Shown here in pieces: positions 5,027-21,919 of a stretch of DNA of 60,199 nucleotides. Position numbers and translations under genes: made by a program. Position 1 is the first letter of the stretch. Each line of letters starts with the position of its first letter. Source of the stretch: an uncultured Myxococcales bacterium (lineage in GTDB: Bacteria > Myxococcota_A > UBA9042); assembly GCA_903955385.1 (NCBI GenBank), contig CAJBNH010000047.1:1-60199 (forward strand). Direction: 5' to 3'. The notes beneath the pieces were generated by a model. It saw only the letters and a list, made by a program, of their open reading frames with translations. It did not search any database and was not told the origin of the DNA.

Positions 5027-6295
5027 TCAGGGCTGGCTGGCCAGCGGCTTGGCTTCGGCAGTGGCGGGCGTCGGCGACGGATAGATCAGGACCTTCGCTC
5101 GCTTCTGACCAAACGCGGCAAGCTCGCCGGCCCACGTCGCCTCGATCTCTGCGACGGACTTGCCCTCGTCGATCAGCCGCAGCACCTCGTCGTTGCCCCA
5201 TACCCGCCCGAAACGCTTGCGGTCCTTCACCGTCAGCTGGTCGGGATGCAGCTTCTTCAGCGTCACCAGAATCGTCAGCGCCGTCCGCAGCGGCGCCAGC
5301 TCGCGCGGGTCCTGCAACAACACCTGCACACCGTGGGTCACCTTGTTGGCGAACTGACCGCGGCGGGGCAGGAACGTCATGGGGCGAAAGCGCAGACCGG
5401 GCAGCTTCTCAGCCTCCAGCGCAGCAGCGAACGCCTTGGGCTCGATCCAGGGCGCGCCGATCAGCTCGAAAGGCATCGACATGCCGCCGCCTTCGTTCAC
5501 GTTGGGTCCCGAGCCGCCCACCATGCCCGTCGCCACGTACAAGTGGGCGTTGAGCGGGTGCGGAATGCCCGGCGAGGTCGGGATCCAATGCAACCCCGTG
5601 TCCTCCCAGACCATGTCGCGTCGCCAGCCCTGCATCGGCACCACCGTGAGGTCACACGCGATGTTCAGCTCGGACTTGTAGAACTGGGCCATCTCGCCCA
5701 CGGTCATGCCGTGCGTGACGGGCAGCGGCCCCCAGCCGATCAGGCTCTTGTACTTCGGCAGCCGGATCGGCCCCTCGAACTGCAGGCCACCGCGCGGGTT
5801 CGGGCGGTCCAGCACCAGCAGCGGCTTCTTGAATTCGGCGCACGCGCGCATCACCTGACCCAGCGTCGTGACGTAGGTGTAGGTGCGCGAGCCGATGTCC
5901 TGCAGGTCGAAAATGACCACGTCGACGCGGTCCAGCGACTCGACCGACGGCCCGCGGGTGAACAACCCTTCGATGGGAAGGCCGGTTTCGGGGTCCAGCC
6001 CCGACTCGCCGCTGTTGCCGTTGTGCAGCGCGCCCGCGATGCCATGCTCGGGTGCGTAGAGCTGCGTGACCTGCCACCGGGAGTCGCCGCGCAGGCGCTC
6101 CAGCGTGGTGACGAGGTTGCCGTCGACCGCCGCAGAGTTGGTAACGATCCCAAGACGCTTGCCCTCGATCAGCGCGGTCTTCTGCCCCAACAGCACGTCG
6201 ACGCCCAGTGTGACCACGGGTTTGGGCGGGGCAGCCAGGGCGGGGCAGGCGTACAGCAGGGTAGCGAGGAGGAACAGGCAGCAGCGTCGTGTCAT
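5027..6295 (-). CDS. DUF1343 / NamZ-like exo-beta-N-acetylmuramidase, secreted
   Basis: A 422-aa protein from ATG 6295, preceded by a CGGAG seven bases upstream. An earlier in-frame start would add 42 residues before an otherwise good signal peptide (MTRRCCLFLLATLLYACPALA, cut into two pieces: MTRRCCLFLL and ATLLYACPALA). The mature protein matches DUF1343: GIVTNSAAVD, LYAPEHGIAG, VIFDLQDIGSRTYTYV, LVLDRPNPRGG and TEGRG-region equivalents (NEGGGMSMPFE). The characterised member NamZ of Bacillus subtilis removes non-reducing terminal N-acetylmuramic acid from peptidoglycan fragments, so a role in periplasmic wall recycling is likely. Length agrees with the family (about 400 aa). No other muropeptide-recycling genes flank it. 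Confidence 0.85.
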   Translation of the reverse strand: MTRRCCLFLLATLLYACPALAAPPKPVVTLGVDVLLGQKTALIEGKRLGIVTNSAAVDGNLVTTLERLRGDSRWQVTQLYAPEHGIAGALHNGNSGESGLDPETGLPIEGLFTRGPSVESLDRVDVVIFDLQDIGSRTYTYVTTLGQVMRACAEFKKPLLVLDRPNPRGGLQFEGPIRLPKYKSLIGWGPLPVTHGMTVGEMAQFYKSELNIACDLTVVPMQGWRRDMVWEDTGLHWIPTSPGIPHPLNAHLYVATGMVGGSGPNVNEGGGMSMPFELIGAPWIEPKAFAAALEAEKLPGLRFRPMTFLPRRGQFANKVTHGVQVLLQDPRELAPLRTALTILVTLKKLHPDQLTVKDRKRFGRVWGNDEVLRLIDEGKSVAEIEATWAGELAAFGQKRAKVLIYPSPTPATAEAKPLASQP

Positions 6296-6412
6296 CGGGA
6301 CTCCGGTCGGGGGGCTCGGTGGCAGGCGACAGAACATCGCCAAGGCCGATGGTAGGCACGGGGTCGGGTTCGAGGTCAACCGGTATCCCGTCGGTTCGAC
6401 CTGCGGCTGAGC

Positions 6413-6440
6413 TTGCCGCACGGGCCTCAGGTGCTACTGT
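6413..6440 (+). promoter_or_regulatory. Candidate promoter of the YdbH-like operon
   Basis: TTGCCG (6413-6418) and TACTGT (6435-6440) lie 16 bases apart, ending 26 bases before the ATG at 6467. It sits in the divergent gap between the NamZ-like gene (start 6295) and the AsmA-like gene. Motif match only. Confidence 0.3.
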
Positions 6441-6466: not shown

Positions 6467-9400
6467 ATGCCGACCGAGACCGCTCCGCCCACCGTCACCA
6501 CGCCCCCGGAACCCCAGGTTCCCGTGGGACAGCCACGTCCGGCAAAGAAGGCCGCGGGCACACGCAAGTGGCTGCGATGGCTGCGTTTTGTCCTGACGAC
6601 GCTGCTGCTGGTGCTCGTGATCGCGGCGGGGGTGGTGGCGACCCATCTGGGGGCACCGTGGGTGCGCGGGCCGGTGCGCGGCTTGGTCTTCGAGATGACC
6701 GGCGTGCATGTGGACTACGCCGATGCGTCGCTGGGCGCCTCGAGCTTCGAGTTGCGCGACCTGACGGTGCCTTCCCTGCCGCCCGACGCCGATCTGGCGC
6801 CGCAGCTGCTGCGCATTCAACGCATCACGGCGACCTGGCGGTGGGGCGACCTGCTGACGGGCGACTGGCGGCTGACGACGCTGACGGTACAGGAGCCGGC
6901 CCTGCACGTGGTCGTCGACACCCAGTGGGGCGACTCGCTGTCGCGACTGCTGGCGTCGCTGCCGGAACCGGACCAGCCGCCAGTGCCTTTGTCCAAGACT
7001 CTTGACGACTTGCGCGACGGCACGGCCATGGCGGTCGACGCGCTGCGCGTGCGCGGGCTGCGCGCGCGCGTGTCGCTGCGGCTGCCGACCGGCGGGACGC
7101 GAGAGCTGGCGCTGGGCGAGGTGCAGCTGGACGGTCAGGTGCAGCTGGGCGCGCCGAAGCTGGTGGCCAACCTCCACGGTGCGCCGGATGCCAAGGGGCT
7201 GTCGCTGACGATGCTCCAGGGCGGCCGACCAGCTCTCGTCCCGCCAGAGCCCCCGTCCCAAACGCAGTCGGTGGCGACCCTGCGCGCGCTGCAGCACCTG
7301 TGGACGCATGGCGGTCGGCTGCCACTGGCGTTCGCGCTGGACGTCGAGCTGCCGACGGCCGACTCGGCACTGGTGAAGGTGGGGCTGTCGCGCAAGGATT
7401 CCCGCAGTCCTCTTCTGGACTTGCAGGCACGAGCAACCTTTCAGCCCGGTCGCCAGCAGGTCACGGCGGTGCTGGAGCAGTTCGGCCTGCTGGGTGAAAC
7501 GGTGGTCGCCACGGGGCGTGCGGTGCTGCCCGACGCAGGTCCGGGGCCCACGGTCGAGTCGGCAGAGGCACGGCTGCGGCTCGACCCTCTGCTGGCCTTG
7601 GTTCCCGCGGAGCTTGCGACGGCGGTGGGCCGGGGGTGGAGTGCGCTGGCCCGCCTGAAGAACCTGCGCATGGCCGAGAACCCGCTGGCCAGCCAGTTGG
7701 GGGGCCTGTTGCTGCAGCTGGACGGCGACGCGCTGGAGGTCAAGCGAGGCACCCAGACCGCGCGGTTGCAGGGGATGCACGTCGAGGTTCGGGTCGACCC
7801 GGTCGGTGCGACGATGCAAGGCCCGGAGACGCGCTTGCGACTGCGGGTGGTCGCACCCATCGGTCGATTGTCCGCAGCGGACTCGGCGACGGGAAAGCGG
7901 GTCGAGATTCAGGGGCTGGACGCGGGCTTGGACACGACGGCGGCGGCGGCGACTGAGGCGCTGCGACAGGCCGCCGGCGGTGTGGTGCCGGGGCTGGGCG
8001 CGCTGGTCGGTCTGGACATCGCTGGTCACCTGAAGTGGGCCAAGCTGGAGGCGGTGGCGGCGGCCGGAGAAGTCACGGCGACCCAGGCGGGGCTGGAAGC
8101 GACCGCGCAGGTGGGGCCACAGGGTACGCAAGTGCGGGTGCGGATGCCGATGCGCGAGCTCGCCGCGACCGTGGCGGCCGGAAGCGTGCGCTTGACCGGC
8201 TGGCAGGCGCGGCTGGATGCGTCGGGGCCGGCGGTGCTGGGCGCTGGAGTTCCGCAGGCTGGAAACTTCAAGCTGGACGCTGGCTTGGACGTCCAGGGCA
8301 TCGAAGCGGCGGCCGATGGCGTGGCGGGAGCGCTGAGTGACGTGGTCCTGTCGCTGAAGACGCCGGGTCTGCACGCGCAGTGGACCGAGCCGTGGCAAGT
8401 CGGCGGCTCCCTGTCGCTGGAGGCCAAGGCCGCGTCGGCAAGGGTGGGCGGTGGTCCGGCGCTGCGGGGCCTGCGCGCTTGGGCGGAAGTCGAGAAGTTC
8501 CAAGTGGATCCGCGTGATCCGGGTCAGGCGACCGCGCTGCTGCGGGCGGGATTGCAGGCTGGTGGCAGTGAGGGCAAGGCGCGTCTGGACCGCACCCCCG
8601 ATCGGCTGGACTGGCAGGTGGATGCTACCGGTCAGGCCTTGGGCGAGCTGCTGGCGGCGCTGCCCCTTCCACCGGACCTGCGCTCGCTGGCCGAGTGGGG
8701 ACGGCTGGGGTTCGCCGTGCGCAGTCAGGGTCAGGCCAAAACGCCGGGCGGGCAGCTGGGGGCCGTGAAGCAGGACACGACGGTGGAGGTTCGGCAACTG
8801 TGGACGCGGCAGGCGGGGCTGGCGGTCGGCTTTCCGCAGGCAACGCTGCGGCTGCAGAGCGAGGGCGTCGGCCTGGACCAGGAACTGCAGGTGACCGGCA
8901 CGGTTGCGTCGCCTCGGGTCGGTCGGTGGACGGGTGCCTCCCGCAACGACGTGGTGGCGCGGGTGCGGTACCAGCCGACAGAGGGCAAGGTCGCGGCAAG
9001 CGGCAAGCTGTCGTCTCCCAGCGGTCCCAACCTGGCCTTCGACGTGAAAATGGCGCCGGGACAGGGAGATGCGCTGGACTACGCCGCAACGGCCGACGCA
9101 AGCGCGCTGGCGGGGATGCTGCGGCTGCTGCCGGCCGACGTGCGGGATGCGGTGGGCCTGGACGCGCGCAAGCTGACCGCGAAGGTGACGGCCTCGGGCT
9201 CACTGCCCGGCGGAGCGGCGCTGCTGCGGGGCGACGCGGGGGCGCTGGTGGGGGCCAAGGGTACGCACCGGGTCCTGCTGGATGTCCGCGGCGTGCGCGT
9301 CGAACAGCCGGGCGTGCAAGTGGATCTGCCCAGCGTGCAGGTCGAAGTCTACGCCTCGCTGGGGGCATCCGGCGTGTCGGCAGACGTACGGGTGACGGCG

Positions 9401-10729
9401 GACGAGCTGCGGGCGGACGCGGGAGCGCTGCACGCCGAGCTGTGGAGCCTGAAGCAGACGCTCGCCGTGCGTGGCCCGCGATCGGACGGTTTGGGCGACC
9501 TGCACATCACGGGCGACGGCAAGGTGCGAAAACTGGTGCAGAACGCCGTGCCGCAGTGGCCCGCAGGCGAGCTGCAGTGGCGGTTCAAGGCGCGGGCAGA
9601 GGACCTGACCGCCCTGAGGCTGGAGTCGGCATCGTTCGAACAGCCGGGGGCCGGCGTGCGCGTTGACCTGCAAGGCGGCGTGGATCTGGTCCCGACGGGA
9701 AGGGTCAGGACGGTCGAGTTGGACCGCTCGTCGGCGACGGGAGAAGGCGCGGCCGTCGATGTGGCATTGGAGCCGGTGCCCGGACGCCAGAGCATCGCGC
9801 TGGGAGGAACGCTGGATCTGGACGTTGCCCGGCTGGGAGAGGCGACCCAGCTGCTGGCGGGCGTGGGCCACATCCGCGTGCCGTTCCAGATAGAGTCGGG
9901 TGATCTCAGCGTGTTCCGTCTGACCGCAGCGCTGCAATTCGACGGCGTGGACCTCTCGTTGAACCAAGGCCGCACCAAGATCGAGGGCGTGCGAGGCGAC
10001 CTGCCGCTGGTCGAGGACTTCGTGATCGGCGGCGTCGAGCGTGTGCGGCTGCTGGGCGGCGGGCGCACCAACGCCTGGTCTCGGTGGCGCTATCAGGACC
10101 ACCAGCCGTTCCTGACCGGCGCGCACTATCTGGGCATCCGGCGCATGCAGCACATGGGTCTGGTGCTGGGACCGCTGGCAGGCAACGCGCGCGTCGATAG
10201 AAACGTCTTGCATCTGGACCAGTTGGAGGTGTCAGCCCTGCAAGGTCAGGTCACCGGCCAGTGCATCATCGACGTCGACGGCCGGGACACCAAAGTCATG
10301 TTCCGCGGCAACGGCACGGGGTTGAAGGTGCCGGGACACGACGAGCGGCTGGACCTGCACGCTGCGATGACGTTGCTTCCCGGCCGGATGGCCGTGGCGG
10401 GGCGAATCCAGCTGCTGCGGGCTGGACGCAGCCACCTGCTGATGTTGCTGGACCTGTGGGACCCGTACCGGGAGGACACGCGCGCCAACCAGGCGAGAAT
10501 GGCGCTGCAGCTCGGTCACCCACGACAGGCCTCGATGACCTTCCAGAACGGTTTCATGGACATGTCGGTCGAGCTGGGAGGCGCCGCCGGCGTGGTGTCG
10601 ATCGACGAGATCCGTGGCATTCCGCTTGGCCCGCTGATGCAGAAGTACCTTGCACCGTTGATGGATCAGTTCTTCGGAGCTGCCGCCGCGACCGGTTCCG
10701 GGAGCGACAAGGAGAGCCCTTCGCCATGA
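6467..10729 (+). CDS. AsmA/TamB-superfamily protein, YdbH-like (intermembrane lipid transport candidate)
   Basis: A 1420-aa protein from ATG 6467. It has a cytoplasmic Pro/Lys-rich N-terminus, one membrane anchor (about residues 38-62) and a very long, periplasmic, repetitive beta-rich body containing many alternating hydrophobic strands with 'LR.RGLRARVSL', 'VRVRGLR' and 'L.LDG.Q' rhythm, as expected for the grooved beta-taco of AsmA-like proteins. The C-terminal 200 residues (LEVSALQGQVTGQC, then QNGFMDMSVELGG and EIRGIPLGPLMQKYLAP) resemble the YdbH/DctA-YdbH end. In E. coli YdbH works with TamB and YhdP in moving phospholipids to the outer membrane and lies in an operon with ynbE and ydbL. 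Here the following gene, overlapping by four bases (ATGA), is a YdbL-like lipoprotein, which supports the YdbH assignment over plain AsmA. Confidence 0.7.
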   Translation: MPTETAPPTVTTPPEPQVPVGQPRPAKKAAGTRKWLRWLRFVLTTLLLVLVIAAGVVATHLGAPWVRGPVRGLVFEMTGVHVDYADASLGASSFELRDLTVPSLPPDADLAPQLLRIQRITATWRWGDLLTGDWRLTTLTVQEPALHVVVDTQWGDSLSRLLASLPEPDQPPVPLSKTLDDLRDGTAMAVDALRVRGLRARVSLRLPTGGTRELALGEVQLDGQVQLGAPKLVANLHGAPDAKGLSLTMLQGGRPALVPPEPPSQTQSVATLRALQHLWTHGGRLPLAFALDVELPTADSALVKVGLSRKDSRSPLLDLQARATFQPGRQQVTAVLEQFGLLGETVVATGRAVLPDAGPGPTVESAEARLRLDPLLALVPAELATAVGRGWSALARLKNLRMAENPLASQLGGLLLQLDGDALEVKRGTQTARLQGMHVEVRVDPVGATMQGPETRLRLRVVAPIGRLSAADSATGKRVEIQGLDAGLDTTAAAATEALRQAAGGVVPGLGALVGLDIAGHLKWAKLEAVAAAGEVTATQAGLEATAQVGPQGTQVRVRMPMRELAATVAAGSVRLTGWQARLDASGPAVLGAGVPQAGNFKLDAGLDVQGIEAAADGVAGALSDVVLSLKTPGLHAQWTEPWQVGGSLSLEAKAASARVGGGPALRGLRAWAEVEKFQVDPRDPGQATALLRAGLQAGGSEGKARLDRTPDRLDWQVDATGQALGELLAALPLPPDLRSLAEWGRLGFAVRSQGQAKTPGGQLGAVKQDTTVEVRQLWTRQAGLAVGFPQATLRLQSEGVGLDQELQVTGTVASPRVGRWTGASRNDVVARVRYQPTEGKVAASGKLSSPSGPNLAFDVKMAPGQGDALDYAATADASALAGMLRLLPADVRDAVGLDARKLTAKVTASGSLPGGAALLRGDAGALVGAKGTHRVLLDVRGVRVEQPGVQVDLPSVQVEVYASLGASGVSADVRVTADELRADAGALHAELWSLKQTLAVRGPRSDGLGDLHITGDGKVRKLVQNAVPQWPAGELQWRFKARAEDLTALRLESASFEQPGAGVRVDLQGGVDLVPTGRVRTVELDRSSATGEGAAVDVALEPVPGRQSIALGGTLDLDVARLGEATQLLAGVGHIRVPFQIESGDLSVFRLTAALQFDGVDLSLNQGRTKIEGVRGDLPLVEDFVIGGVERVRLLGGGRTNAWSRWRYQDHQPFLTGAHYLGIRRMQHMGLVLGPLAGNARVDRNVLHLDQLEVSALQGQVTGQCIIDVDGRDTKVMFRGNGTGLKVPGHDERLDLHAAMTLLPGRMAVAGRIQLLRAGRSHLLMLLDLWDPYREDTRANQARMALQLGHPRQASMTFQNGFMDMSVELGGAAGVVSIDEIRGIPLGPLMQKYLAPLMDQFFGAAAATGSGSDKESPSP

Positions 10730-11295
10730 ACGCACGAATCGCCATGCTGCTCGCGCTGTTGCCTGCCTTGTCGGCCACCGCTTGCATCCACGCGCCGGAC
10801 GTCGTCATCGTCGACCGCCGCACCGCACTGGAGCAACAGGCCGGTGGTCGCTATGGCGCGCTGGAGGAGGAGCTGGAGCAGCAGGGTGTCAACGCGCGAC
10901 CGGAGCCCTTCACCAGTGGACAGCTGGCCGCCTCGGGGTGGAAGACGGGAGAAGACGGGCAGGCGCTGGCCTCCCTGTACAACGAGCTCTCGGCAGACGC
11001 AGACCGCATTGACCAGCTGCTGGTGCGGCGGTGTGTGGGTGAGGCGCTGGCCGGCACGCTGGCCGAGACGCGCGAGCCGTGCTCTGGCGGTGTGGACCCT
11101 GAGAGCGTGGGCACCCTGGTCGAGCGAGCCAACCGCAACCGACGGCAAGTGTGGCTTTACATCCAAGCGCGCAACCCCTCGACAAGCCTGGAGGATGTGC
11201 AGGCTGCGTGGCGTGAACGGCACCTGACGGATCTGGTGTGCGGCGGCCATCTGCAAGCCGACGACGGCAAGTGGACGGTGAAGCCATGCGACTGA
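10726..11295 (+). CDS. Lipoprotein, DUF1318 (YdbL)-like
   Basis: A 189-aa protein whose ATG overlaps the YdbH-like stop (ATGA), implying translational coupling. The signal peptide ends ALSATAC (lipid-modified Cys20). The mature part begins with DVVIVDRRTALEQQAGG, the N-terminal signature that I associate with DUF1318/YdbL-type proteins, then a helix-rich region with LRRRCVGEAL-like and AWRERHLTDLVCGG segments. In E. coli, YdbL is a small periplasmic partner of the YdbH-YnbE phospholipid bridge and YnbE is the outer-membrane lipoprotein; this single lipoprotein may do either or both jobs. Family membership is from pattern memory, not a search. It overlaps the next gene by ten bases. Confidence 0.6.
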   Translation: MNARIAMLLALLPALSATACIHAPDVVIVDRRTALEQQAGGRYGALEEELEQQGVNARPEPFTSGQLAASGWKTGEDGQALASLYNELSADADRIDQLLVRRCVGEALAGTLAETREPCSGGVDPESVGTLVERANRNRRQVWLYIQARNPSTSLEDVQAAWRERHLTDLVCGGHLQADDGKWTVKPCD

Positions 11296-14200
11296 CGGCC
11301 CGAGCAGGCGCGTGGTGCGCGGCGACGGCGATGCTGCTGTCGGCGGGTGCGGCACGTGCAGCGGACCCCGAGCCGGGCATCCTGCGGTCGCTGGTGCGAC
11401 TGACGGCGGGAGCCTCGGACCAGTTCCTGGGAGCGCTGTCGCCCGACGGTAATACGCTGTATTACGTCAGCAACCGCAACGCAACTACCCAAGTTTTCTC
11501 GCAAAAGACGCGCGGCGGTGTGGCAGGGCTGCTGTTCGACGATGGCGCCGATGTGTCGTTTCCGCGGCCCAGCCCGGATGGCAAGACGCTGCTGTACATC
11601 TCGACCCGCGATGACGCGACCGGCGACGCGTGCCTGCGCGACCTGCAGACGGGAGACGCACGCTGCCTGACGGGCCCTGAGACGGCCGACCAGCACGCCT
11701 TCTGGTTCCCCGACGGCCAGTCGGTCGGCGTCGTGCGGCGAACCGGGCTGAACGCGGACCTGGAGTTGGTGCGGATCGAGGTCGCCAGCGGGCGCAAGCA
11801 GTTGTTGCTGCAGCGCAATCTGTCGACGCCCGCTGGATCGCCCGACGGCAAGTGGCTGGTGTACGTGCCGCTGGAGCGCGCGTCGCAGGACGTCGGCGTC
11901 AGCTTCTCGATGCGCTTGGGCAAGGGGCTGGCACTGGCGCGGTCCGACGGCAAGCAGGTGGGCGAGGTCCGCTTCGATCTGCCTGGCGTCACCGGGTTTC
12001 CTGCGTTCGCGCCCGATGGCCGCTACCTGTACTTCGCCCAGCACTTGAGCGACACCAACTTCGACGGCCGCATTGACGGTGACGACAACGCCGTGGTGTT
12101 CCGGGTGCCGTTCGCGCCCGACGCCGACCCGCCCATCGACCCCGCGGCGACCGAGCAACTGACCAGCGCCCTGTGGAACTGCCAGTACCCCGCGCCTGGA
12201 CGAGACCGGCTGGTCGTGACGTGCCACGCCGACGGCTCGCTGGACCTGTACAGCCTGCCGCCGGACGGTGCGCTGGCGTCCGGTCTGCCGGCCGACAAGC
12301 TGCTGGAGGCACTGGAGGCCGCGCGTGATCCGTGGCAGCGGTTGCTGGTGCTGGGGCGGTTGGCGCGCAGCGCGTCGGGCGCGCAGAAGGTCGAGCGGCT
12401 GCGCGAGATGACGTGGCTGCATCTGGCGAACGGCGAGCACGCGTCGGCCGAGTACTACGCGGCGATGGCGGGACGGCTGGCTGCGGGCGACGCCAAGGTG
12501 ACCGGTTGGGCGGCGGTCGTGGCCGAGCTGGTGGCGCATCGGCGCGAAGAGCGGCTGCTGAACCGCGGCCAGCTGCACGACGGTTTCGTGATGGACCAGC
12601 GCAACCGCCTGACCCGACTGGAGAAGCTGGCCCAAGGCGCACCCGCGGCCGTGCAGGCGCTGTCGCTGCTGGCGCAGGTTGAGGTGCTGGACGTCATCGG
12701 TGACGAGGGCGAGGCAGAGCGGCGGCTGGCCCGGTTCGACGCACGGCGGGTCGACGAGCCGTTCGCGCTGCGGCTGTTCGGCGACCGCGGCGTGGCGCTG
12801 CTGCGCGAGCATGGCGAAAACGACAAGGAGCTCGATGCCTTGGCGGCGCTGGCCACCCGGCCCAGCTTCGACGATGCAGAGCGATTGCGGTACGCCGACC
12901 GCTTCGTCGCCGCGCTGCTGCGAGGGGCAGGTCATGCAGAGCAGCTGAAACGACTGGACCTTTGGCGGGGGCGTTTTGACGCGGAGGGTGAGCTGGCGTT
13001 CCGTCTGGAGCTGGAGGCGCAGCTGCTGCAGCTGACGCCGGGCAAGGATGAGGAGGTGCGCGCCACCGTGTTCGCGCTGTACCGCCAGAACAAGTCGTTT
13101 GCGCGGCGCAAGGCCCTGGTCGCGGCGACACTGCGGCGCGCGGCAACGATGAGCAGCGCCCTGCTGATGTACGAATTCAGCAATTCTTGGGTCTCGTGGC
13201 TGGGCCGGGACCACGCCGCGCGTGAGGACGCGGTCGACCTGTTCCGCACCGTCGTGTTGGAGCGCGCGTATCTGTCCGAATCGCAAGGCAAGATCGACGA
13301 CGCCCGCGGCAACTTCTTTGGCGTCACGCTGCAGACCGACGACCTGGAATCCCACATCGGCTTCATCGAGCTGCGGCTGCGTGAGGGCAAGAACGACGTC
13401 GCCGAGTTCTACCGCAAGCGGTTCGAGAAGACGCCCGATGCCCCCGTGCCCCGGTTTGCCCGGGCATGGCTGGCGGCCCGCACGCTGACGACCATCGCCG
13501 ACGCGGAAGTGCGGCGACAGGCGATCGCGGCGATAGAGGCGGACCTGGCCCCCGCCAGCGGCGCGTTTGTGCAACAGGCGGCGTGGTATGCGTTCCTGGG
13601 GTATCTCGCGCACCAACGGCTGCTGACGGGCGACCGCTCTGCCGCGCTGCCGGCGAACGAGAACTACCTGATGGCGCTGGACCTTGCCCGCGACCGGCCT
13701 CGACAGGCAGCCAGCGTGCTGCAGGCGCTGGGACAGCTGCAGGCGGCTGTGGGCAACCACTGGCTGGCACTCGACTTCTTCGACCGGCGTGACCGTCTGC
13801 CGTACCTGCGACCGGCGTCCGAGCTGACCGCCCGACTGGCGCGCGCCCGCAGCCTGTATCAGGTCGGCCGCCACGGGGAGTCCGCCGCCGATGCCGATCG
13901 GGCGCTTGCGCTGCTGGACAAGCATCCAGAGTTGCAGCGGTTTCGCGATCTGGTGACCGACCGCGCCGCGCTGTTGCACTACGCCGCCGGCCACTTCGAC
14001 CGGGCCTATGCCCTTGCCACGCAGGCGGCAGAGGGGGGCGGCGCCGCGGCTGACCAGCTGGCCAATCGCTTGCGTTCCAGGCTGTTGCAGGCCGCGGCGG
14101 CGCAAGCGGCGGGTCAGGCCGACCGGGCGCTGCAGGCGGTGGCGGCGGCGCGCAAGGATCTGGAGCAGGTGACCGACGAGGCCCTGAAGACCTCGCTGCG

Positions 14201-14723
14201 CCCGTGGGAGCGGCCCGCGCGTGTCGACCGCGACGACGTTCAGCTGGTCCTGCTGGGCATCGAGGCCTCGGCACTGGAACAGCAGGGGCAGCTGCCCCAG
14301 GCGCGGACGGCCCTGTTGGCCAGACGGGACCTGCTGGCTGAACGCATGGACGACAGCGAGGACGACGAGAGCCTGCCCCTGCTGCTGGCAGAGGTCGAAG
14401 AGCGTCTGGCCGACGTCGCCCGCAAGCAGGCCCAGCCCGAAGTGGCCGTGCGCCATCTGGAAGCGGGGCTGGTCGCGGTGGCGCGTTTCACCAAGCTGAC
14501 CGGTACGGTGGCGCCGCCGCTGCGCCTGCGGCTGCTGTTTGCCTATGCAGAGGCCACCCTGTATGGCAAAGTGCCTGTCGGCCTGCTGCACCGCGACTTG
14601 AAGGCAGATCTGACGGCGGTGCACCGGGAATTGGCCGCGCGCGGCAACCCGCTGAAGGCCCCGGAACGGTTCCTGCTCGCCACCTACTTGACCCTGTTGG
14701 ACACTCGAAAGGAGTCCCGATGA
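11286..14723 (+). CDS. Periplasmic TolB-like propeller plus helical-repeat protein
   Basis: A 1145-aa protein. ATG 11286 lies within the end of the preceding lipoprotein gene. A Sec signal peptide (cut near Ala-Arg-Ala-Ala, about residue 24) is followed by about six PD40/TolB-type blades from residue 45 to 320: LSPDGNTLYYVSN, PRPSPDGKTLLYIS, FAPDGRYLYFAQ and similar. From about 350 to the end it is almost all alpha-helical with Ala/Leu/Arg-rich TPR-like repeats and no membrane segment. Propeller plus TPR architectures usually act as periplasmic scaffolds that bind proteins or lipids; no catalytic motif is seen. Its overlap with the genes on both sides places it inside the YdbH-like operon, so a part in the same envelope process is a fair inference. 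Confidence 0.7.
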   Translation: MRLTARAGAWCAATAMLLSAGAARAADPEPGILRSLVRLTAGASDQFLGALSPDGNTLYYVSNRNATTQVFSQKTRGGVAGLLFDDGADVSFPRPSPDGKTLLYISTRDDATGDACLRDLQTGDARCLTGPETADQHAFWFPDGQSVGVVRRTGLNADLELVRIEVASGRKQLLLQRNLSTPAGSPDGKWLVYVPLERASQDVGVSFSMRLGKGLALARSDGKQVGEVRFDLPGVTGFPAFAPDGRYLYFAQHLSDTNFDGRIDGDDNAVVFRVPFAPDADPPIDPAATEQLTSALWNCQYPAPGRDRLVVTCHADGSLDLYSLPPDGALASGLPADKLLEALEAARDPWQRLLVLGRLARSASGAQKVERLREMTWLHLANGEHASAEYYAAMAGRLAAGDAKVTGWAAVVAELVAHRREERLLNRGQLHDGFVMDQRNRLTRLEKLAQGAPAAVQALSLLAQVEVLDVIGDEGEAERRLARFDARRVDEPFALRLFGDRGVALLREHGENDKELDALAALATRPSFDDAERLRYADRFVAALLRGAGHAEQLKRLDLWRGRFDAEGELAFRLELEAQLLQLTPGKDEEVRATVFALYRQNKSFARRKALVAATLRRAATMSSALLMYEFSNSWVSWLGRDHAAREDAVDLFRTVVLERAYLSESQGKIDDARGNFFGVTLQTDDLESHIGFIELRLREGKNDVAEFYRKRFEKTPDAPVPRFARAWLAARTLTTIADAEVRRQAIAAIEADLAPASGAFVQQAAWYAFLGYLAHQRLLTGDRSAALPANENYLMALDLARDRPRQAASVLQALGQLQAAVGNHWLALDFFDRRDRLPYLRPASELTARLARARSLYQVGRHGESAADADRALALLDKHPELQRFRDLVTDRAALLHYAAGHFDRAYALATQAAEGGGAAADQLANRLRSRLLQAAAAQAAGQADRALQAVAAARKDLEQVTDEALKTSLRPWERPARVDRDDVQLVLLGIEASALEQQGQLPQARTALLARRDLLAERMDDSEDDESLPLLLAEVEERLADVARKQAQPEVAVRHLEAGLVAVARFTKLTGTVAPPLRLRLLFAYAEATLYGKVPVGLLHRDLKADLTAVHRELAARGNPLKAPERFLLATYLTLLDTRKESR

Positions 14724-15211
14724 AGCGCCTGACTCTGTGGATCGCTCTGGTCGCCCTTACCCTGCCGCTTGCCGCGTGCGAGACCGTTCTGCCCGACGCC
14801 GTCACGACGGTGCAGCCGACGTTCACCAGCATCTACGCGGACTATCTGTACAAGTGCGCAGACTGCCACGCCCCCGGTGCGATGGGCAGCATCAACGGCA
14901 TCGAGCAGAGTCTGGACTTCTCGACCCAAGCGAAGGCCCACGCGACGTTGATGACCAAGGCCAAGGGCATGTCCGGCAACCCGTCAGCCTGCAACGGCAC
15001 GGCCTTCGTGGTCGCGGGTAACCCCGGAAAGAGCCTGCTGCTGGCCACGCTGGACAGCTCGGTGCGGCAGGCGTTCGACACGGGCGACGGCTCCGGATGC
15101 GACGTCGACTCCATCACGGACATGACGATTCGCGTGCAGGGCGGAACGCCCTCGTCGGCCACGCTGACCGCGCTGCATGACTGGATCGCCGCGGGTGCCA
15201 AGAACGACTGA
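14720..15211 (+). CDS. Lipoprotein with a single CxxCH heme-binding-like motif
   Basis: A 163-aa protein, ATG overlapping the stop of the previous gene (ATGA), with AAGGAG just upstream. The lipobox is LPLAAC (Cys20). One CADCH motif (Cys46, Cys49, His50) follows, in a context close to 'planctomycete-type' cytochrome c domains, where a short covalent-heme motif precedes a long loop and a C-terminal helix (LHDWIAAGAKND, typical of cytochrome c ends). A distal axial Met (MGS, MTKAKGM) is possible but not certain. It could be an electron carrier or a structural heme lipoprotein anchored in the envelope. It is the last gene of the coupled four-gene run beginning with the YdbH-like protein. Confidence 0.65.
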   Translation: MKRLTLWIALVALTLPLAACETVLPDAVTTVQPTFTSIYADYLYKCADCHAPGAMGSINGIEQSLDFSTQAKAHATLMTKAKGMSGNPSACNGTAFVVAGNPGKSLLLATLDSSVRQAFDTGDGSGCDVDSITDMTIRVQGGTPSSATLTALHDWIAAGAKND

Positions 15212-15382: not shown

Positions 15383-15428
15383 CACCCACGGGCACCGATT
15401 CGTGTCCAATACTACCGAGGGGGGTTAC

Positions 15429-16766
15429 GTGAATCACATGACTATCGGGCGCTTGGCAACCTGCCTGGCGACCGCGCTGCTGTTGACAGTTCCCGCCGTT
15501 TCCCACGCTGGGGACCATCCGGGCTGGGCCGAAGCAACCGATGGAAAGGGCGACTACGGCTATCTTCGCAAGTGGTTCTTTGAGGATGGCTGCCCCGGCA
15601 AGGGGTTTACCGCCTGCAAGGACTTCAAGGCGGCCCTCAACATCGGCGACAAGTTCCCGACCCCGCTGGTGACCGACGCACTTGTCGTGGGCGGCGACAA
15701 CCTGACCAGCAAGAGCTGCATCCCGGCGTGGGGCTGCTCAACGCTGATCCCGTCTCTGGAACTCATCGGCATGCGGGGCAGTCCGGACAACAAGGCCCTG
15801 CTGGACGGCTTCTTCGCCAACGCAGAGCTTTGGGAGAGCAATCAGGCCAGAACCCGCCGGGCCGTGCTGGTCCGCATCTTGGGCTGGTATGGCGACAAGT
15901 CGTTCGCCCCCGTGATCAAGGCGATGGTCGAGTACGAACCGGGCCGCGAGTTTACCAACGTCGCGCTGGCTTCGGCAGCGGCGCTGTTCGAGCAGTGGGG
16001 GGACAACAGCCTGATCGAAGCGTGCCAGGCTACCTTTGACCCCAGCATCGACTCCCCGGCCATCCAGGACGCACGCTCGTCATGCGCTCACTACCTGCTC
16101 AAGTTCGGGGACAAGTCGGTCGCCGGCAAGCTCAAGCGCGCCAAGCCGGGCAGTGACGCCTATACGGCAGTCCTGTTGGGTGGCATGGGCGACAGCAGCA
16201 ACAAGGCCGAATGGCAGACGACCGTCAAGGACTTCGCTGGCAGCCCTGACCGCACTGAGCGGGCGGCAGCCTTGGCCGCGTTGGCGCTGTTGGGCGATGC
16301 CAAGGCGGAAAAGGAGTACCTGGCGCTGCTGACGGGCAAGAATCCCGATGCCGCTTTTGAGCACGCGCAGATCCTCGCGATTCTGCAGGGTACCCCGCTG
16401 GCCAAGAAGGCCGCCGCCGCCGTCAAGAAGGTCGTGGGCAAGCTGGACGCCAAGGACAAGGTCGGCCGCACTCGCGCGATGATGGTCGCGTTCCTGCTGC
16501 GGAGTGGCGATGCTTCAGTGCTGCCGGATGCCGTTGCGCTGTTCGCTTCGGACGACACCGACGTGCGCAGCCAGCTGGCGGGAGCGTTGGCGGGCACGCT
16601 GCGCGGTGGTCCGTTCGTCGGGCCCGGCAACGGGATCTACGGCGGCGCGCCGGTCGCCGGCCTGGGCAAGGTGCTGGACGAGGCGTGGGGCAACGAGTCC
16701 GACGCCAGCGTCAAGACGTCGATCGCGCAGGCCTGGGTCATGCTGCGGTCGGTCGGCGGGAACTGA
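15429..16766 (+). CDS. Secreted HEAT-repeat-like protein
   Basis: About 445 aa. GTG 15429 is preferred, with GAGGGGGG at 15417-15424; ATG 15438 (three codons later) is an alternative. A signal peptide ends near PAVSHA-GD. The mature protein is a chain of helical pairs with HEAT-like rhythm: RRAVLVRILGWYGDKSF, AIKAMVEYEPG, ASAAALFEQWGDNSL, AAALAALALLGDAKA, MMVAFLLRSGDASV and SQLAGALAGTLRGG. A Cys-containing N-terminal 80 residues (DGCPGKGFTACKDF, SCIPAWGCSTLI) may be disulphide-bonded. Such proteins serve as protein-binding scaffolds; no enzyme motif is present. It is a monocistronic gene, convergent with eutB. Confidence 0.65.
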   Translation: MNHMTIGRLATCLATALLLTVPAVSHAGDHPGWAEATDGKGDYGYLRKWFFEDGCPGKGFTACKDFKAALNIGDKFPTPLVTDALVVGGDNLTSKSCIPAWGCSTLIPSLELIGMRGSPDNKALLDGFFANAELWESNQARTRRAVLVRILGWYGDKSFAPVIKAMVEYEPGREFTNVALASAAALFEQWGDNSLIEACQATFDPSIDSPAIQDARSSCAHYLLKFGDKSVAGKLKRAKPGSDAYTAVLLGGMGDSSNKAEWQTTVKDFAGSPDRTERAAALAALALLGDAKAEKEYLALLTGKNPDAAFEHAQILAILQGTPLAKKAAAAVKKVVGKLDAKDKVGRTRAMMVAFLLRSGDASVLPDAVALFASDDTDVRSQLAGALAGTLRGGPFVGPGNGIYGGAPVAGLGKVLDEAWGNESDASVKTSIAQAWVMLRSVGGN

Positions 16767-16829: not shown

Positions 16830-18233
16830 CTACCCCCGCCCCTTCCGCTCACCACGCAGACTGAACGGCGTGTCGAACACCGTCGGGTCGCCCGCGCGTT
16901 CCGTCAGTCGCCCGTTGCGCCACAGACCGATGCGCTCCAGCCACGCCTCGAACTCCGGCGCTGGCTTCAGGCCATACAGCTCGCGGACGGCGGCGTTGTC
17001 GTGAAAGCTGGTCGTCTGGTAGTTCAGCATCACGTCGTCGCCCAGCGGAATGCCCATCAGGTAGGTGCAGCCCGCGGAAGCCAGCAACATCTCCAGGTTT
17101 TCCTGATCGTCCTGGTCGGCGTCGGCATGGTTGGTGTAGCAGGCGTCGCAGCCCATCGACACGCCGGACAGCTTGCCCATGAAGTGGTCTTCCAGCCCGG
17201 CGCGGGTGATCTGCTTGCCGTCCTGCAGGTACTCGGGGCCGATGAAGCCGACGACCGTGTTGACGATGAAGGGCGTGTAGCGGCGGGCGAAGGCGTAAGT
17301 CCGTGCCTCCATGGTGGTTTGGTCAGTGTCGTAGTGCGCCCTTGCCGACAGCGCCGTGCCCTGCCCCGTCTCGAAGTACATGACGTGCGGGCCCTGCGCC
17401 GTGCCCTCGCGCTTGACCAGATCGTAGGCCTCGTCCATCAGGCTGACCGAGATGCCGAAGTTGCGGTTGGCCTTCTCTGTCCCCGCCAGAGACTGGAAGC
17501 ACAGGTCGACGGGCGCCTGAAACCGCCGAATCGCGTCCATCTGCACCGTCACATGCGCCAGCACGCAAACCTGAGTCGGGATGCGGTGCTGGCGGATCAT
17601 GTCCTTGACGGCGTGCAGGATGGCTGCGGTGTTCTCCACGCTTTCGGTCGACGGGTTGATGCCGATCAGCGCGTCGCCATTGCCATACGACAGCCCGTCC
17701 TGAATGGCGGCCAGAATGCCCGGCACCGCGTCGGTGGGGTGGTTCGGCTGCAGTCGTGACGAGATCCGCCCCGGCAACCCCAAGGTATTGTTGCACTTGC
17801 GAACCACGCGCATCTTGCGACCGGCCGTCACCAGGTCCAGCGTCGACATCAGCTTGCAGGTCGCGCTGACCATCTCGGGCGTCAAGCCGGGCGAGATGGC
17901 GGCGATGTCCTCGCCCGTCGTCTTGCGGTCCAGCAGCCACTCACGCAGTCCCGACACCGTCCAGCCGCGCACCGTGCGATAGGCGCGGTCGTCCAGATCG
18001 TCGATGCTGACGCGCGTGATCTCATCCAGCTCGTAGGGAACCGACGGGTGCTCGTAGAAATGACGCAGCTCGAGATCCGCAAGCACGCGCTTGGCCGCCA
18101 CGCGTTCGCGGGTGCTCTCGGCCGCCAGCCCCGCCGCCTGGTCGCCCGACTTGGGCTCACTGGCGCGATTCAACGCGTCCTTCAGCGTGGGGAAGGTGAA
18201 GGTCGAGCCGTGGACGGTCGCGGAGAGCTTCAT
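16830..18233 (-). CDS. eutB: Ethanolamine ammonia-lyase, large (heavy) subunit
   Basis: A 467-aa protein starting at ATG 18233; the start matches E. coli EutB (453 aa), which also begins MKL. Alignment from memory is strong over the whole length. Residues that bind ethanolamine in the TIM barrel are retained: SSRLQPN (around 160), GINPS (around 192), YFETGQGTALSA (Glu near 290) and MGCDACYTNHADAD (Asp near 365). EutB with EutC uses adenosylcobalamin to convert ethanolamine to acetaldehyde and ammonia. The small subunit EutC, which completes the cobalamin site, is absent from both sides: the gene faces a HEAT-repeat gene and is divergent from a fibre-like protein gene. No microcompartment or eutA gene is seen. 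Function would need EutC encoded elsewhere. Confidence 0.92.
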   Translation of the reverse strand: MKLSATVHGSTFTFPTLKDALNRASEPKSGDQAAGLAAESTRERVAAKRVLADLELRHFYEHPSVPYELDEITRVSIDDLDDRAYRTVRGWTVSGLREWLLDRKTTGEDIAAISPGLTPEMVSATCKLMSTLDLVTAGRKMRVVRKCNNTLGLPGRISSRLQPNHPTDAVPGILAAIQDGLSYGNGDALIGINPSTESVENTAAILHAVKDMIRQHRIPTQVCVLAHVTVQMDAIRRFQAPVDLCFQSLAGTEKANRNFGISVSLMDEAYDLVKREGTAQGPHVMYFETGQGTALSARAHYDTDQTTMEARTYAFARRYTPFIVNTVVGFIGPEYLQDGKQITRAGLEDHFMGKLSGVSMGCDACYTNHADADQDDQENLEMLLASAGCTYLMGIPLGDDVMLNYQTTSFHDNAAVRELYGLKPAPEFEAWLERIGLWRNGRLTERAGDPTVFDTPFSLRGERKGRG

Positions 18234-18364
18234 GCCGCCGGAGTCTGCGGTCTTGAGGACCGTTCGTCCAGAGCGTATCGTCGAGGGCGAGCTGGCAGCG
18301 CTTGCGCCCCCGGAAGCCCGGTGCCGCGCCTGATCCGCCAAGCGTGCACACGGGGGGCCGGACA

Positions 18365-20110
18365 ATGATCGCGAAGCGCTGGAACGACTTGCGAGGGATG
18401 GCGGCGCTGGGGCTGGCGGTGGCGTTGTGCGCCTGGCCTGCGCCTCAGGCGTTCGCTGTGCCGGCGACGGTGGCGGTCGAGGGGTTCCTGAACTCTACTG
18501 GCGGTGGCGCGGCACCCGACGGTGACTACGCGGTGGGCGTGGGCCTGTACGCGGCTGAGCTGGGCGGCCAGGCGGTGTGGAGCGAGGGTCCGCTGACCGT
18601 TGCAGCCAAGGGCGGGCAGTTCTCTTTTGCGCTCGGCACCAAGAAGCCCTTGAATCCCGTCACTTTGGCTGACGCTTCGACGCTGTGGTTGGGCGTGACC
18701 ATCGGCTCGGACCCAGAGCTGCCACGCAGGCCCCTGCACGCCGTGCCGTTTGCAGTGCGCGCGGGGGTCGCAGCGGGCCTCGAGTGCTCAGGCTGCGTGA
18801 CCGCCGGGCATCTGGACCCCCAAGTGCTCGCCCCCTACGCCAAGGCCGCGGACCTTTCCAAGGTCTCGAAATCCGGCGCGTATGCCGATCTGGCGGGCAC
18901 GCCGACCTTTGCCGCGGTGGCGACGACGGGCGCATACGGCGACCTCGATGGACTGCCGGTGCTGGCCAAGGTGGGCGCGGCGTGCGGCACCGGACTGCTC
19001 ATGCGAGGCATTCTGGCCGATGGCACCTATGACTGCGTGTCGGGCACCGTGGACGCGTCCAAGCTGCCGGGGGACGGACTGAACGAGATCTCGGCCGGTT
19101 CGCTGACCAACGAGTTCGCAGACGCCTTCGCAAGCGCCAAGACGCCGGTCGCGATCCCCGACAACAGTCCGGTCGGCATCAGCGACGTCATCGAGATCCC
19201 TGACTTGGGTGTGACGCAAGGCCTGACCATCACAGCGGAAGTGACCAACAGCGACACGTCCACCGTGAAAGTCACCCTCATCGACCCCAACGCGGACAAG
19301 ATCGTCCTGTGGGACAAGTCGGCCAAGGGCACGGTCATCAAGACCTCGTGGCCCGCCCCCAGCAAGACGGTATCTGGCGATCTCGCAACCTGGATCGGCA
19401 AGAACCCCAAGGGGAAGTGGTACTTGGAGGTCATCGACACCGGGTTCATCAACAACACGCTCGACGGCGCGATCCAGTCGTGGTCGATCACGTCCAAGAC
19501 CGTGTCCGGCAAGAAGGTTCAGGTCAAGGGCGATCTGGTCGTCGACAAAGGCGTGACGGCCGACACGGTGGCGGCCAACACGCTGACGGCGACGACCGTC
19601 ACCGGCACGACGCTGAACGGCACCACGGTCAATGCCACCGAGCTCAAGGCGACCAAGGTCACCGCGACCACCGTGATCGCCGACACCGTCACGGCCAACA
19701 CCAAGCTGGTCTCCGGCGGCGGACGCGTGCAGCGAGACCTGCTGCAGTGGAGCACAACGGCCAACAGCCCCACCAAGATCCAAATCAAGACCAACATCAA
19801 GATCCAGACCAACACGATGTACCGGCTGCTGGTCGAGGGCTACAACTACGGCGCCTCGGCCGTCATCAACAGCGATGCCGTCGGCTACACCTACTCCGGT
19901 TGGTCGTGCCTCGGGTCCACCTCGGTCAACAACTACGCAACCGGTGGAGCCTTGACCCAATACTGCAGTGCCGACGGCTATGTCGTGCTGCGTCTGACCG
20001 TACCGTCCGCGTACTTCATGGGCTTCTCGGTGTCCGCCTGGACGGTGAATCCGGCGGGTCAGGGCTTCGCCGTCGAGGCCAAGGTCTACCACCAGGACGC
20101 GGACTTGTGA
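18365..20110 (+). CDS. Secreted fibre-like protein with a P-domain
   Basis: A 581-aa protein from ATG 18365 (GGGGGG about seven bases upstream). The signal peptide ends QAFA-VP. Residues 25-150 resemble the N-terminal region of secreted proteins carrying tail-fibre-like modules (FSFALGTKKPLNP, LWLGVTIGSDPELPRRPL, AVPFAVRA). Residues about 262-380 form a proprotein-convertase P-domain: VAIPDNSPVGISDVIEIPD, VKVTLIDPNADKIVLWD, GKWYLEVIDTGFINNTLDGAIQ (shown in parts) and WSIT. Residues about 390-450 are a heptad-like Thr/Val/Ala run with repeated 'TVTAxT' steps, as in trimeric fibre stalks. The C-terminal 130 residues look globular and Tyr-rich. A surface filament or adhesin is likely; no protease domain is present, unlike most P-domain proteins. 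Confidence 0.6.
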   Translation: MIAKRWNDLRGMAALGLAVALCAWPAPQAFAVPATVAVEGFLNSTGGGAAPDGDYAVGVGLYAAELGGQAVWSEGPLTVAAKGGQFSFALGTKKPLNPVTLADASTLWLGVTIGSDPELPRRPLHAVPFAVRAGVAAGLECSGCVTAGHLDPQVLAPYAKAADLSKVSKSGAYADLAGTPTFAAVATTGAYGDLDGLPVLAKVGAACGTGLLMRGILADGTYDCVSGTVDASKLPGDGLNEISAGSLTNEFADAFASAKTPVAIPDNSPVGISDVIEIPDLGVTQGLTITAEVTNSDTSTVKVTLIDPNADKIVLWDKSAKGTVIKTSWPAPSKTVSGDLATWIGKNPKGKWYLEVIDTGFINNTLDGAIQSWSITSKTVSGKKVQVKGDLVVDKGVTADTVAANTLTATTVTGTTLNGTTVNATELKATKVTATTVIADTVTANTKLVSGGGRVQRDLLQWSTTANSPTKIQIKTNIKIQTNTMYRLLVEGYNYGASAVINSDAVGYTYSGWSCLGSTSVNNYATGGALTQYCSADGYVVLRLTVPSAYFMGFSVSAWTVNPAGQGFAVEAKVYHQDADL

Positions 20111-20239: not shown

Positions 20240-21919
20240 ATGGGCGTGTTCGTCCGTTCGCAACACCTCGGTTGGTTCCAGCGCGGCGAGGCCGTGTTCC
20301 TCTACCACGAGCTCTACGGCTTCTTGCTGGAGATGTCTGCGGATCTGAAGGCGATTGTCGATGCGTTCGCCCAGCCCGTCGACCACTCGCTGGTGGTGGA
20401 TCAGTTTGCCGACAAGTTCTCGATCGCGCAGATGAACGAGTTCCTGTCGGTGTTCGGCCAATACCGGGCGCTGGTCGCGCCGGACGTGCAAGAGTTGGAC
20501 GGGCTGGTCGAGTCCGTGCCGATCAAGGGGCCGTGGATTGTCGCAGCGCGAGAGGCGGATGCGACGGTCACGGCGGTCACCAGCCGCGGTTTCGGCCCCG
20601 AGCCCTACGCGCAACCCCAGATCGTCAAGATGGATCCGTGGCAGGCGGACCTGTGGCGCAGCATCGACGGCGAGAAGACCGTGCGGCGGCTGGCGGCAAA
20701 CCTGACCGAGCTGTACGACGGCGACCCGCAGCAGGACTTGGGCCGCGCGGTCGTCTCCATCGCCGGGTGGACGCACTCGTCGCGCCAGCTGACGCGCGTT
20801 TTGCTGAAGCCTCGCAGCCAGTTCCAGCGCCTGCCACCGTATGTCACCAGCACGATGCCCTACGCGCCGCTGTCGGACACGCCGGCGCCGCCGGTCGACC
20901 CGCGCACCCGCAACCTCGATGCCTACCACGAAGGCACGATTGCCGACGCCGAGGCGCAGTTCGACGAGCTGGAGACCACGCTGTCGCACCTGTTCAGCGA
21001 CCCGCATCCCGCTTTGGCCGACCGCACGTATGCCCAGACGTTTGCCGGGGTTGCGCGTGACCGTGGCTGGGTGGCGCCGGACCGCGCTCAGGTCGTCGAG
21101 GTCGGCGGCGGCACCGGCCGATTCGCCGCGGGCATGGTCGAGAGCCTGAGGGATCTGGCGGGTTTGCACTACAAGGTGGTCGAGCTCGCACCGGCGCTTC
21201 AGGCGGCGCAGCAGGAGCGACTGGCCCCGTTCGGCGCGCTGGCCGAGTCGGTGCGAGGCCATGCGGAGGACCTGCAGCTTCCCGAATCATCGGTGGATTT
21301 TCTGATCTCCAACGAGATGATTGCCGACCTGCGCATGGGCTTCGTCACGCGCGACTCGCTGCAGAAGGGGCGGCCCGACGACGAGACCGATCCAGAAGCC
21401 CTTGCCCTGATTCAGCAATACGGACTGGACACGCAGCAGGCCCCAGAGCCCGTGCCGGTGCAGGTGGGTGCCACGCGGCTGGTCGAGCGGCTGGCCAAGG
21501 TCCTGAAGCCGGGTGGCACGGCCGTGCTGACGGAGTTCGGCGGCGAGAAGCAATTCCCCATCGAGTCCACCCAGTTGGAGCACGCAGAGTGGTCGGTGCA
21601 CTTCGGCCACCTGAGGAAGGTCGCAGGCGTGCTGGGGCTGCAAGCGACGCTGGAGCCCCTGCCGGAATTCCTGAAGCTTCGCGGCGATGTCTGGGTGCTG
21701 GCGACGACCCGGACGCAGTTCCGCAACCTGCGCCATCTGGTGCGGCTGCACGGCGGCGACCTGCAGAAACGGGCGATGACGCCTGAGCAATTCGCGCTGG
21801 CGTGCGGCGGTCACTTGCGCCCCGACAGCATCGAGGGTGTGCAGTTCCGGCCGTGCGGAGAGCGTGTGATGGGCCTGGTACCCAGCGAGTTTCAGGTGCT
21901 TGTGCTGCGGCGAGGCTGA
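20240..21919 (+). CDS. SAM-dependent methyltransferase with N-terminal PqqD-like region
   Basis: A 559-aa protein from ATG 20240 with GGAGG four to five bases upstream. Residues 1-230 contain short winged-helix-like stretches; one, DPWQADLWRSIDGEKTVRRL (about 131-150), looks like a PqqD-type peptide-binding fold. Residues about 285-470 form a class I methyltransferase fold: SAM motif I VVEVGGGTGRFAAGM, Glu at the end of strand 2 (YKVVELAP), then SVDFLISNEMIADLRMG, which resembles the 'NE.hD' motif IV of MidA/NDUFAF7-type enzymes (Methyltransf_28). The C-terminal part ends in a beta strand (FQVLVLRRG). The substrate is unknown. PqqD-like folds serve RiPP maturation systems, but no precursor peptide or radical SAM gene is adjacent. 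Confidence 0.55.
   Translation: MGVFVRSQHLGWFQRGEAVFLYHELYGFLLEMSADLKAIVDAFAQPVDHSLVVDQFADKFSIAQMNEFLSVFGQYRALVAPDVQELDGLVESVPIKGPWIVAAREADATVTAVTSRGFGPEPYAQPQIVKMDPWQADLWRSIDGEKTVRRLAANLTELYDGDPQQDLGRAVVSIAGWTHSSRQLTRVLLKPRSQFQRLPPYVTSTMPYAPLSDTPAPPVDPRTRNLDAYHEGTIADAEAQFDELETTLSHLFSDPHPALADRTYAQTFAGVARDRGWVAPDRAQVVEVGGGTGRFAAGMVESLRDLAGLHYKVVELAPALQAAQQERLAPFGALAESVRGHAEDLQLPESSVDFLISNEMIADLRMGFVTRDSLQKGRPDDETDPEALALIQQYGLDTQQAPEPVPVQVGATRLVERLAKVLKPGGTAVLTEFGGEKQFPIESTQLEHAEWSVHFGHLRKVAGVLGLQATLEPLPEFLKLRGDVWVLATTRTQFRNLRHLVRLHGGDLQKRAMTPEQFALACGGHLRPDSIEGVQFRPCGERVMGLVPSEFQVLVLRRG

Follow-up and report, generated by a model that had tools for sequence, protein, structure and literature searches.

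A four-gene myxococcal operon pairs an AsmA-like candidate lipid bridge with a DUF1318 lipoprotein, a propeller-solenoid protein and a predicted cytochrome

In a 60,199-nucleotide stretch of DNA from an uncultured Myxococcales bacterium, analysed whole and called the window here, four overlapping genes encode an AsmA-like protein, a DUF1318 lipoprotein, a secreted protein made of a beta-propeller and an alpha-solenoid, and a predicted c-type cytochrome lipoprotein. The same order recurs in related genomes of many soil and water bacteria, and comparison of their sequences indicates that it is more than chance. The gene unit, its domain content, its conservation and the predicted folds of the first and third proteins were obtained directly from the analysis. 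Combining these with analogy to E. coli, we lean slightly towards reading the unit as a YdbH-like intermembrane lipid bridge, whose outer-membrane end may be docked and regulated by a hub of propeller and solenoid that comes with a redox or protease module. The operon is a variant of the AsmA-type bridge with partners undescribed in the literature searched, and it bears on the contact of AsmA-family bridges with the outer membrane and on the control of lipid flow through them.

Gene unit and distribution

The sequence-only reading of this DNA had placed four plus-strand open reading frames joined by start-stop overlaps, and its coordinates are correct: the junctions are an ATGA at 10726-10729, a 10-nt overlap at 11286-11295 and an ATGA at 14720-14723. 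The features of the unit are:

6467..10729, plus strand: AsmA-superfamily bridge gene in the YdbH position, 1420 aa; N-terminal membrane anchor, predicted continuous beta-sheet groove
10726..11295, plus strand: DUF1318 lipoprotein gene, 189 aa; Cys20, DUF1318 at 27.7 bits, YdbL by hhalign at E 2.5e-8, family alignment
11002..11283, plus strand: DUF1318/YdbL domain, lipoprotein residues 93-186; profile and hhalign
11286..14723, plus strand: secreted propeller-solenoid hub gene, 1145 aa; PD40 E 8.5e-18, AlphaFold2 pLDDT 89, pTM 0.84
11373..12275, plus strand: TolB-like beta-propeller, residues ~30-330; Foldseek to TolB/TolB-Pal at E ~1e-9, invariant columns
12291..14717, plus strand: TPR-like alpha-solenoid, residues ~336-1144; AlphaFold2 helices, TPR matches in relatives, Ski3-type by Foldseek
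14720..15211, plus strand: predicted monoheme c-type cytochrome lipoprotein (Cys20), 163 aa; invariant CxxCH and Met135, weak Cytochrome_CBB3 and TIGR03806
14855..14869, plus strand: CADCH heme-attachment motif, cytochrome residues 46-50; sequence and family alignment
15122..15124, plus strand: invariant Met135, candidate distal heme ligand; family alignment

The order AsmA-like bridge, DUF1318 lipoprotein, propeller-solenoid protein, CxxCH lipoprotein was found in 24 genomes, a count that includes the source genome and some loci where the contig stops within gene one or gene four. It holds at 23-52% protein identity, with overlapping or very short junctions in most of these genomes. A search of 53 relatives with the bridge protein gave matches in 20 genomes, and reading of the surrounding DNA revealed the same gene order wherever the contig was long enough. 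Looking for this order in relatives had been proposed along with the first reading of the sequence, and the order was found in them, not absent from them all. A scan with the propeller alignment over one genome per species yielded 29 more loci, mostly from Myxococcota and unclassified deltaproteobacterial MAGs; the same scan also reached Methylotuvimicrobium buryatense 5G, a Silvanigrella MAG, a Nitrospirota genome (Ca. Magnetocorallium) and a Kiritimatiellia MAG.

In a sample of 141 genomes from the phylum, the lipoprotein was present in 24 and adjoined by a propeller gene in all 24, with 19 operons of the compact form and five carrying a much larger propeller protein. Strong cytochrome matches occurred in 17 genomes of this sample, all within the operon, and accounted for 17 of the 19 compact operons. 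Nominal hypergeometric values for these co-occurrences were 1e-27 and 1e-16, which are not true probabilities because the genomes are related. The patchiness of the operon (24 of 141 genomes) argues against its being the essential lipid route of the cell. Outside the phylum, M. buryatense 5G is a cultured gammaproteobacterial isolate that carries the operon, with the AsmA-like gene ~7.4 kb from the lipoprotein-propeller pair and oppositely oriented genes between them (L061, L122). No canonical YdbH (PF11739) was found in its genome, and the operon there is likely a horizontal gain from a Myxococcota-like donor.

When the neighbourhoods of relatives were compared, no flanking gene was conserved beside the operon beyond close relatives, so the unit ends with gene four. 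A HEAT-repeat gene at 15402-16766 was considered as a fifth member and set aside, being missing from the relatives' operons. Nearby in the window lie a NamZ exo-N-acetylmuramidase gene (5027-6421, minus strand), divergent from the operon and not kept adjacent to it in relatives; a gene for EutB, the ethanolamine ammonia-lyase large subunit (16830-18365, minus strand), with no small subunit seen among the scanned neighbours; and a gene for a 559-aa protein (20240-21919, plus strand) with a weak PqqD-like segment and a methyltransferase domain.

Domain content and conservation of the four proteins

The assignment of the first protein to the AsmA type was supported by its family. Against Pfam, the window protein matched DUF748 and AsmA at E ~1e-4, under the curated cut-offs, while among 14 relatives DUF748 was matched by 13 (best 1.3e-10), AsmA by 10 (best 2.1e-9) and YhdP by 6. 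The AsmA-like protein of one operon of the larger form exceeded the AsmA cut-off (30.9 vs 29.8). The bridge has a single N-terminal membrane helix, and AlphaFold2 predicted residues 221-1420 to be almost all beta strand at a moderate mean pLDDT of 67, the C-terminal two thirds being better modelled. At that confidence, the prediction does not contradict the beta-taco AsmA relative that had been proposed. Hydrophobic and polar residues alternate along the strands (score 2.41 vs 1.47±0.18 in shuffled sequences, p 2e-4), giving the predicted chain the amphipathic character that a lipid groove requires. Conservation climbs steadily to 0.51 at the C-terminus, compared to 0.13-0.28 in most of the remainder, and the C-terminal 280 residues are the best-conserved part.

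The first two genes had also been likened to the E. coli ydbH-ydbL pair, which proved true of the second gene and failed in sequence tests for the first. The YdbH family PF11739 gave no match at E<=0.1 in 14 members of the bridge family, and hhalign against five canonical YdbH proteins gave E 0.59, not a match, leaving direct YdbH homology unsupported by either single-sequence or profile comparison. Foldseek with the bridge model returned ApoB-100 and beta-barrels only, at low TM-scores, with no AsmA, TamB or Vps13 structure among the best 50 matches, and no sequence relative was found in the PDB. Because canonical YdbH similarity was lacking and Foldseek recovered no AsmA-family structure, we call the protein, from its sequence and model, a putative AsmA-like bridge in the YdbH position, not YdbH.

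For the second protein, DUF1318 (PF07027) scored 27.7 bits vs a cut-off of 27, the YdbL motif VGE..G...LV..IN..R..Y...Q...G.W is present, and alignment to canonical E. coli-type YdbL by hhalign gave E 2.5e-8. Cys20 is invariant in the family alignment, and conservation peaks at residues 21-40 (0.65), the membrane-proximal segment directly after the lipid anchor. Peaks here and at the bridge C-terminus are as expected if both ends meet. In the Silvanigrella MAG (L075 3629-3889), an 86-aa lipoprotein corresponding to the N-terminal part without the YdbL domain stands alone beside the other three genes, supporting a lipoprotein built of two separable parts. Many proteins consisting of DUF1318 only (L140-L158) turned up in the phylum-level sample taken around the Kiritimatiellia MAG; they match the C-terminal YdbL part only. 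YnbE was sought as a short lipoprotein with a PITINMNVKIEHEIxIKxDK strand, which this protein does not have; hhalign with YnbE aligned the signal peptide only, direct YnbE homology was not found, and the operon contains no separate YnbE gene.

The third protein had been described as a 1145-aa propeller with helical repeats, and both parts were recovered. It carries a Sec signal peptide and no lipobox, and AlphaFold2 modelled it confidently (pLDDT 89, pTM 0.84) as a propeller at residues ~30-330 followed by an alpha-solenoid to the end. Foldseek matched the propeller to TolB and TolB-Pal structures (E ~1e-9) and the solenoid to Ski3-type TPR arrays, and TPR profiles matched some relatives. The TolB equivalog TIGR02800 reached 55.7 bits vs a cut-off of 343, over the propeller only, short of a TolB assignment. 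The propeller holds four invariant cysteines and an invariant DxNxDGxxDGxD loop. In the window, the loop DTNxDGxIDGxD (residues 256-267, 12051-12086) resembles an EF-hand or dockerin-type calcium loop. By Pfam, the window hub has no CHAT domain (PF12770).

The fourth protein, noticed earlier as a CxxCH lipoprotein, has CADCH at residues 46-50 and, as an exported CxxCH protein, agrees in this respect with a class I c-type cytochrome. The CxxCH motif, Met135 near the C-terminus and two further cysteines are invariant in 17 of 17 relatives, and the lipobox cysteine is kept in at least 90% of this 17-member alignment. Family profiles gave weak Cytochrome_CBB3 matches in 13 of 17 members and TIGR03806 in 5 of 17; the recurrent matches are all to cytochrome c, though weak, and no sequence relative was found in the PDB. 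The source genome encodes cytochrome c assembly proteins, and heme attachment is expected. The earlier idea of a heme lipoprotein tied to the bridge stands in part: strong matches lie only in the operon, but the gene is absent from eight compact operons and from all operons of the larger form. On the propeller-protein tree, two changes explain the presence of the cytochrome; we take both to be losses from a compact clade whose base already had it, the deepest placement being unsure because of long branches. Judging from these patterns, the cytochrome is an accessory of one operon branch, not a universal part.

CHAT-type operons and alternative readings

In the larger operon form, the third gene encodes a propeller-TPR protein of 2,400-3,000 aa that ends in a caspase-like CHAT domain (PF12770; loci L160-L164, L166-L170, L077, L079, L080, L116, L119 and L120). 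CHAT is found at the end of all 16 complete giant copies, and the catalytic His and Cys are retained in 13 of the 16. In one group (L167, L168, L169), CHAT is recognisable in the C-terminal ~280 aa and both catalytic residues are lost. A lipobox is present in many of the giant proteins. Where the contig extends far enough, nearly all CHAT-type operons have an AsmA-like gene ahead of the lipoprotein gene; the Nitrospirota locus has none directly upstream, and none of the CHAT-type operons has a cytochrome gene. Of the 58 genomes of the phylum-level, Bdellovibrionota-like group of the Silvanigrella MAG, 15 have this form (16 matches, one weak and partial), which is also found in Myxococcota, Nitrospirota and Kiritimatiellota. 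The papers searched held nothing on TPR-CHAT proteins in the periplasm or on CHAT with AsmA, and the envelope-exported caspase-like protease predicted here, tied to a lipid bridge, would be without precedent in that literature.

Since CHAT domains are recurrent bacterial conflict effectors (PMC10907252), the operon could be read as an envelope sensing or conflict system for regulated cell death or predation, with the propeller-TPR protein as sensor-effector hub and the AsmA-like protein as a scaffold or lipid-depleting weapon. The patchy distribution, carriers that include Myxococcota and Bdellovibrionota-like genomes, and the retained CHAT dyad (13/16) favour it. However, PADLOC gave no match for the four window proteins and matched the CHAT protein to a TPR model only, the window's compact form has no protease, and in E. 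coli the pairing of an AsmA-like bridge with a YdbL domain marks lipid homeostasis, making this reading rather unlikely. We also consider it unlikely that the bridge carries a non-phospholipid, such as a quinone, hopanoid, hydrocarbon or other reducible lipid, and that the cytochrome passes electrons to or from this cargo or an outer-membrane oxidoreductase. The cytochrome is ancestral to the compact operon, the genome's TamB is available for the general route, and the predicted groove is hydrophobic, yet CHAT-type operons, and compact ones derived twice over, do without a cytochrome, and the operon has no conserved oxidoreductase or lipid-synthesis gene as a neighbour.

Two further readings were weighed. 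At the outer membrane, PorE/PG1058 of type IX secretion likewise joins TPR to a TolB-like propeller (PMC5053529), and the hub might in the same way belong to an accessory scaffold for outer-membrane assembly or secretion in place of a lipid transporter. This seems improbable, given that relatives share no linked secretion or barrel gene and that the invariant partners are the AsmA-like protein and the YdbL-domain lipoprotein. The absence of the cytochrome from eight compact and all CHAT-type operons could mean that the CxxCH lipoprotein is an unrelated passenger sharing the transcript. Already disfavoured, this is highly improbable: strong matches occur inside the operon only in 17 of 17 genomes, at least two phyla, that of the Silvanigrella MAG among them, preserve the position and often the ATGA overlap, and the tree puts the cytochrome at the base of the compact clade.

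Proposed mechanism and comparison with known systems

Returning to the YdbH-like bridge with a docked or regulating hub, we infer the following for lipid transport and regulation, for outer-membrane location and docking geometry, and for heme attachment. The four proteins would form a co-translated envelope complex in which the bridge, anchored in the inner membrane, spans the periplasm and its hydrophobic beta-groove may guide lipids, probably phospholipids, across. The DUF1318 lipoprotein would sit in the outer membrane, where the segment beside its lipid anchor may cap or extend the C-terminal end of the bridge, the role of YnbE in E. coli, and its YdbL domain may control assembly of that end. 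The propeller-solenoid protein would be a periplasmic hub that docks at the outer-membrane end of the bridge for recruitment or gating, with the cytochrome lipoprotein providing redox input or output; where the cytochrome is absent, a CHAT protease fused to the hub would take the effector position. The separate TamB in the genome and the patchy operon make a specialised or conditional route likely. The missing sequence matches to YdbH and YnbE, the moderate bridge model with no AsmA-type structure among its Foldseek matches, and the loss of the cytochrome gene twice without loss of the remaining genes count against this explanation.

More speculatively, the operons could represent a new class of trans-envelope lipid bridge with an interchangeable effector gating its outer-membrane end: in the compact form this would be a cytochrome reporting redox state, in the large one a caspase-like CHAT protease. 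We hold this broader proposal only tentatively. If true, intermembrane lipid flow would be directly linked to redox state or to periplasmic proteolytic signalling. The hub and its cytochrome or CHAT module, genetically bound to the bridge across several phyla, are named and testable candidates for docking and regulation, including in M. buryatense 5G.

In E. coli, YdbH transports phospholipids redundantly with TamB and YhdP (PMC8593681, PMC8912898) and reaches the outer membrane via the lipoprotein YnbE, as cited in PMC12977461 and PMC11784454; the former names only YnbE and TamA as known outer-membrane partners of E. coli AsmA-family bridges. The present operon resembles YdbH-YnbE-YdbL in having an AsmA-like gene first, an outer-membrane-type lipoprotein second, an ATGA overlap (as in ydbH/ynbE too) and a DUF1318/YdbL domain. 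It differs in that its bridge is not detectably YdbH by sequence, that one lipoprotein takes the place of YnbE and YdbL, which with ydbH are separate genes (ydbH-ynbE-ydbL) in canonical operons, and that it additionally encodes a propeller-solenoid hub along with a cytochrome or CHAT module; the papers searched contained nothing on DUF1318 with a propeller. With TamB, YhdP and AsmA the bridge shares superfamily-level matches to AsmA, DUF748 and YhdP, a single N-terminal membrane helix and a predicted beta-rich amphipathic chain, whereas its gene is separate from the genome's own TamB and no TamA-type barrel or other known partner lies near the operon.

TolB of the Tol-Pal system binds an outer-membrane lipoprotein. 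The hub is likewise predicted to be periplasmic, with the TolB propeller fold and an adjoining lipoprotein gene, but lacks the TolB N-terminal domain and is fused to an 800-aa solenoid. Its combination of TPR and TolB-like propeller recalls PorE/PG1058, from which it differs in domain order, in having neither OmpA_C nor CRD, and in its operon partners. Distant operon members end in PF12770 with conserved His and Cys, as CHAT-TPR caspase-like proteins do; unlike those, they are exported, mostly resemble lipoproteins, carry a propeller at the N-terminus and have an AsmA-like protein as partner, and the compact hub of the window is built without CHAT.
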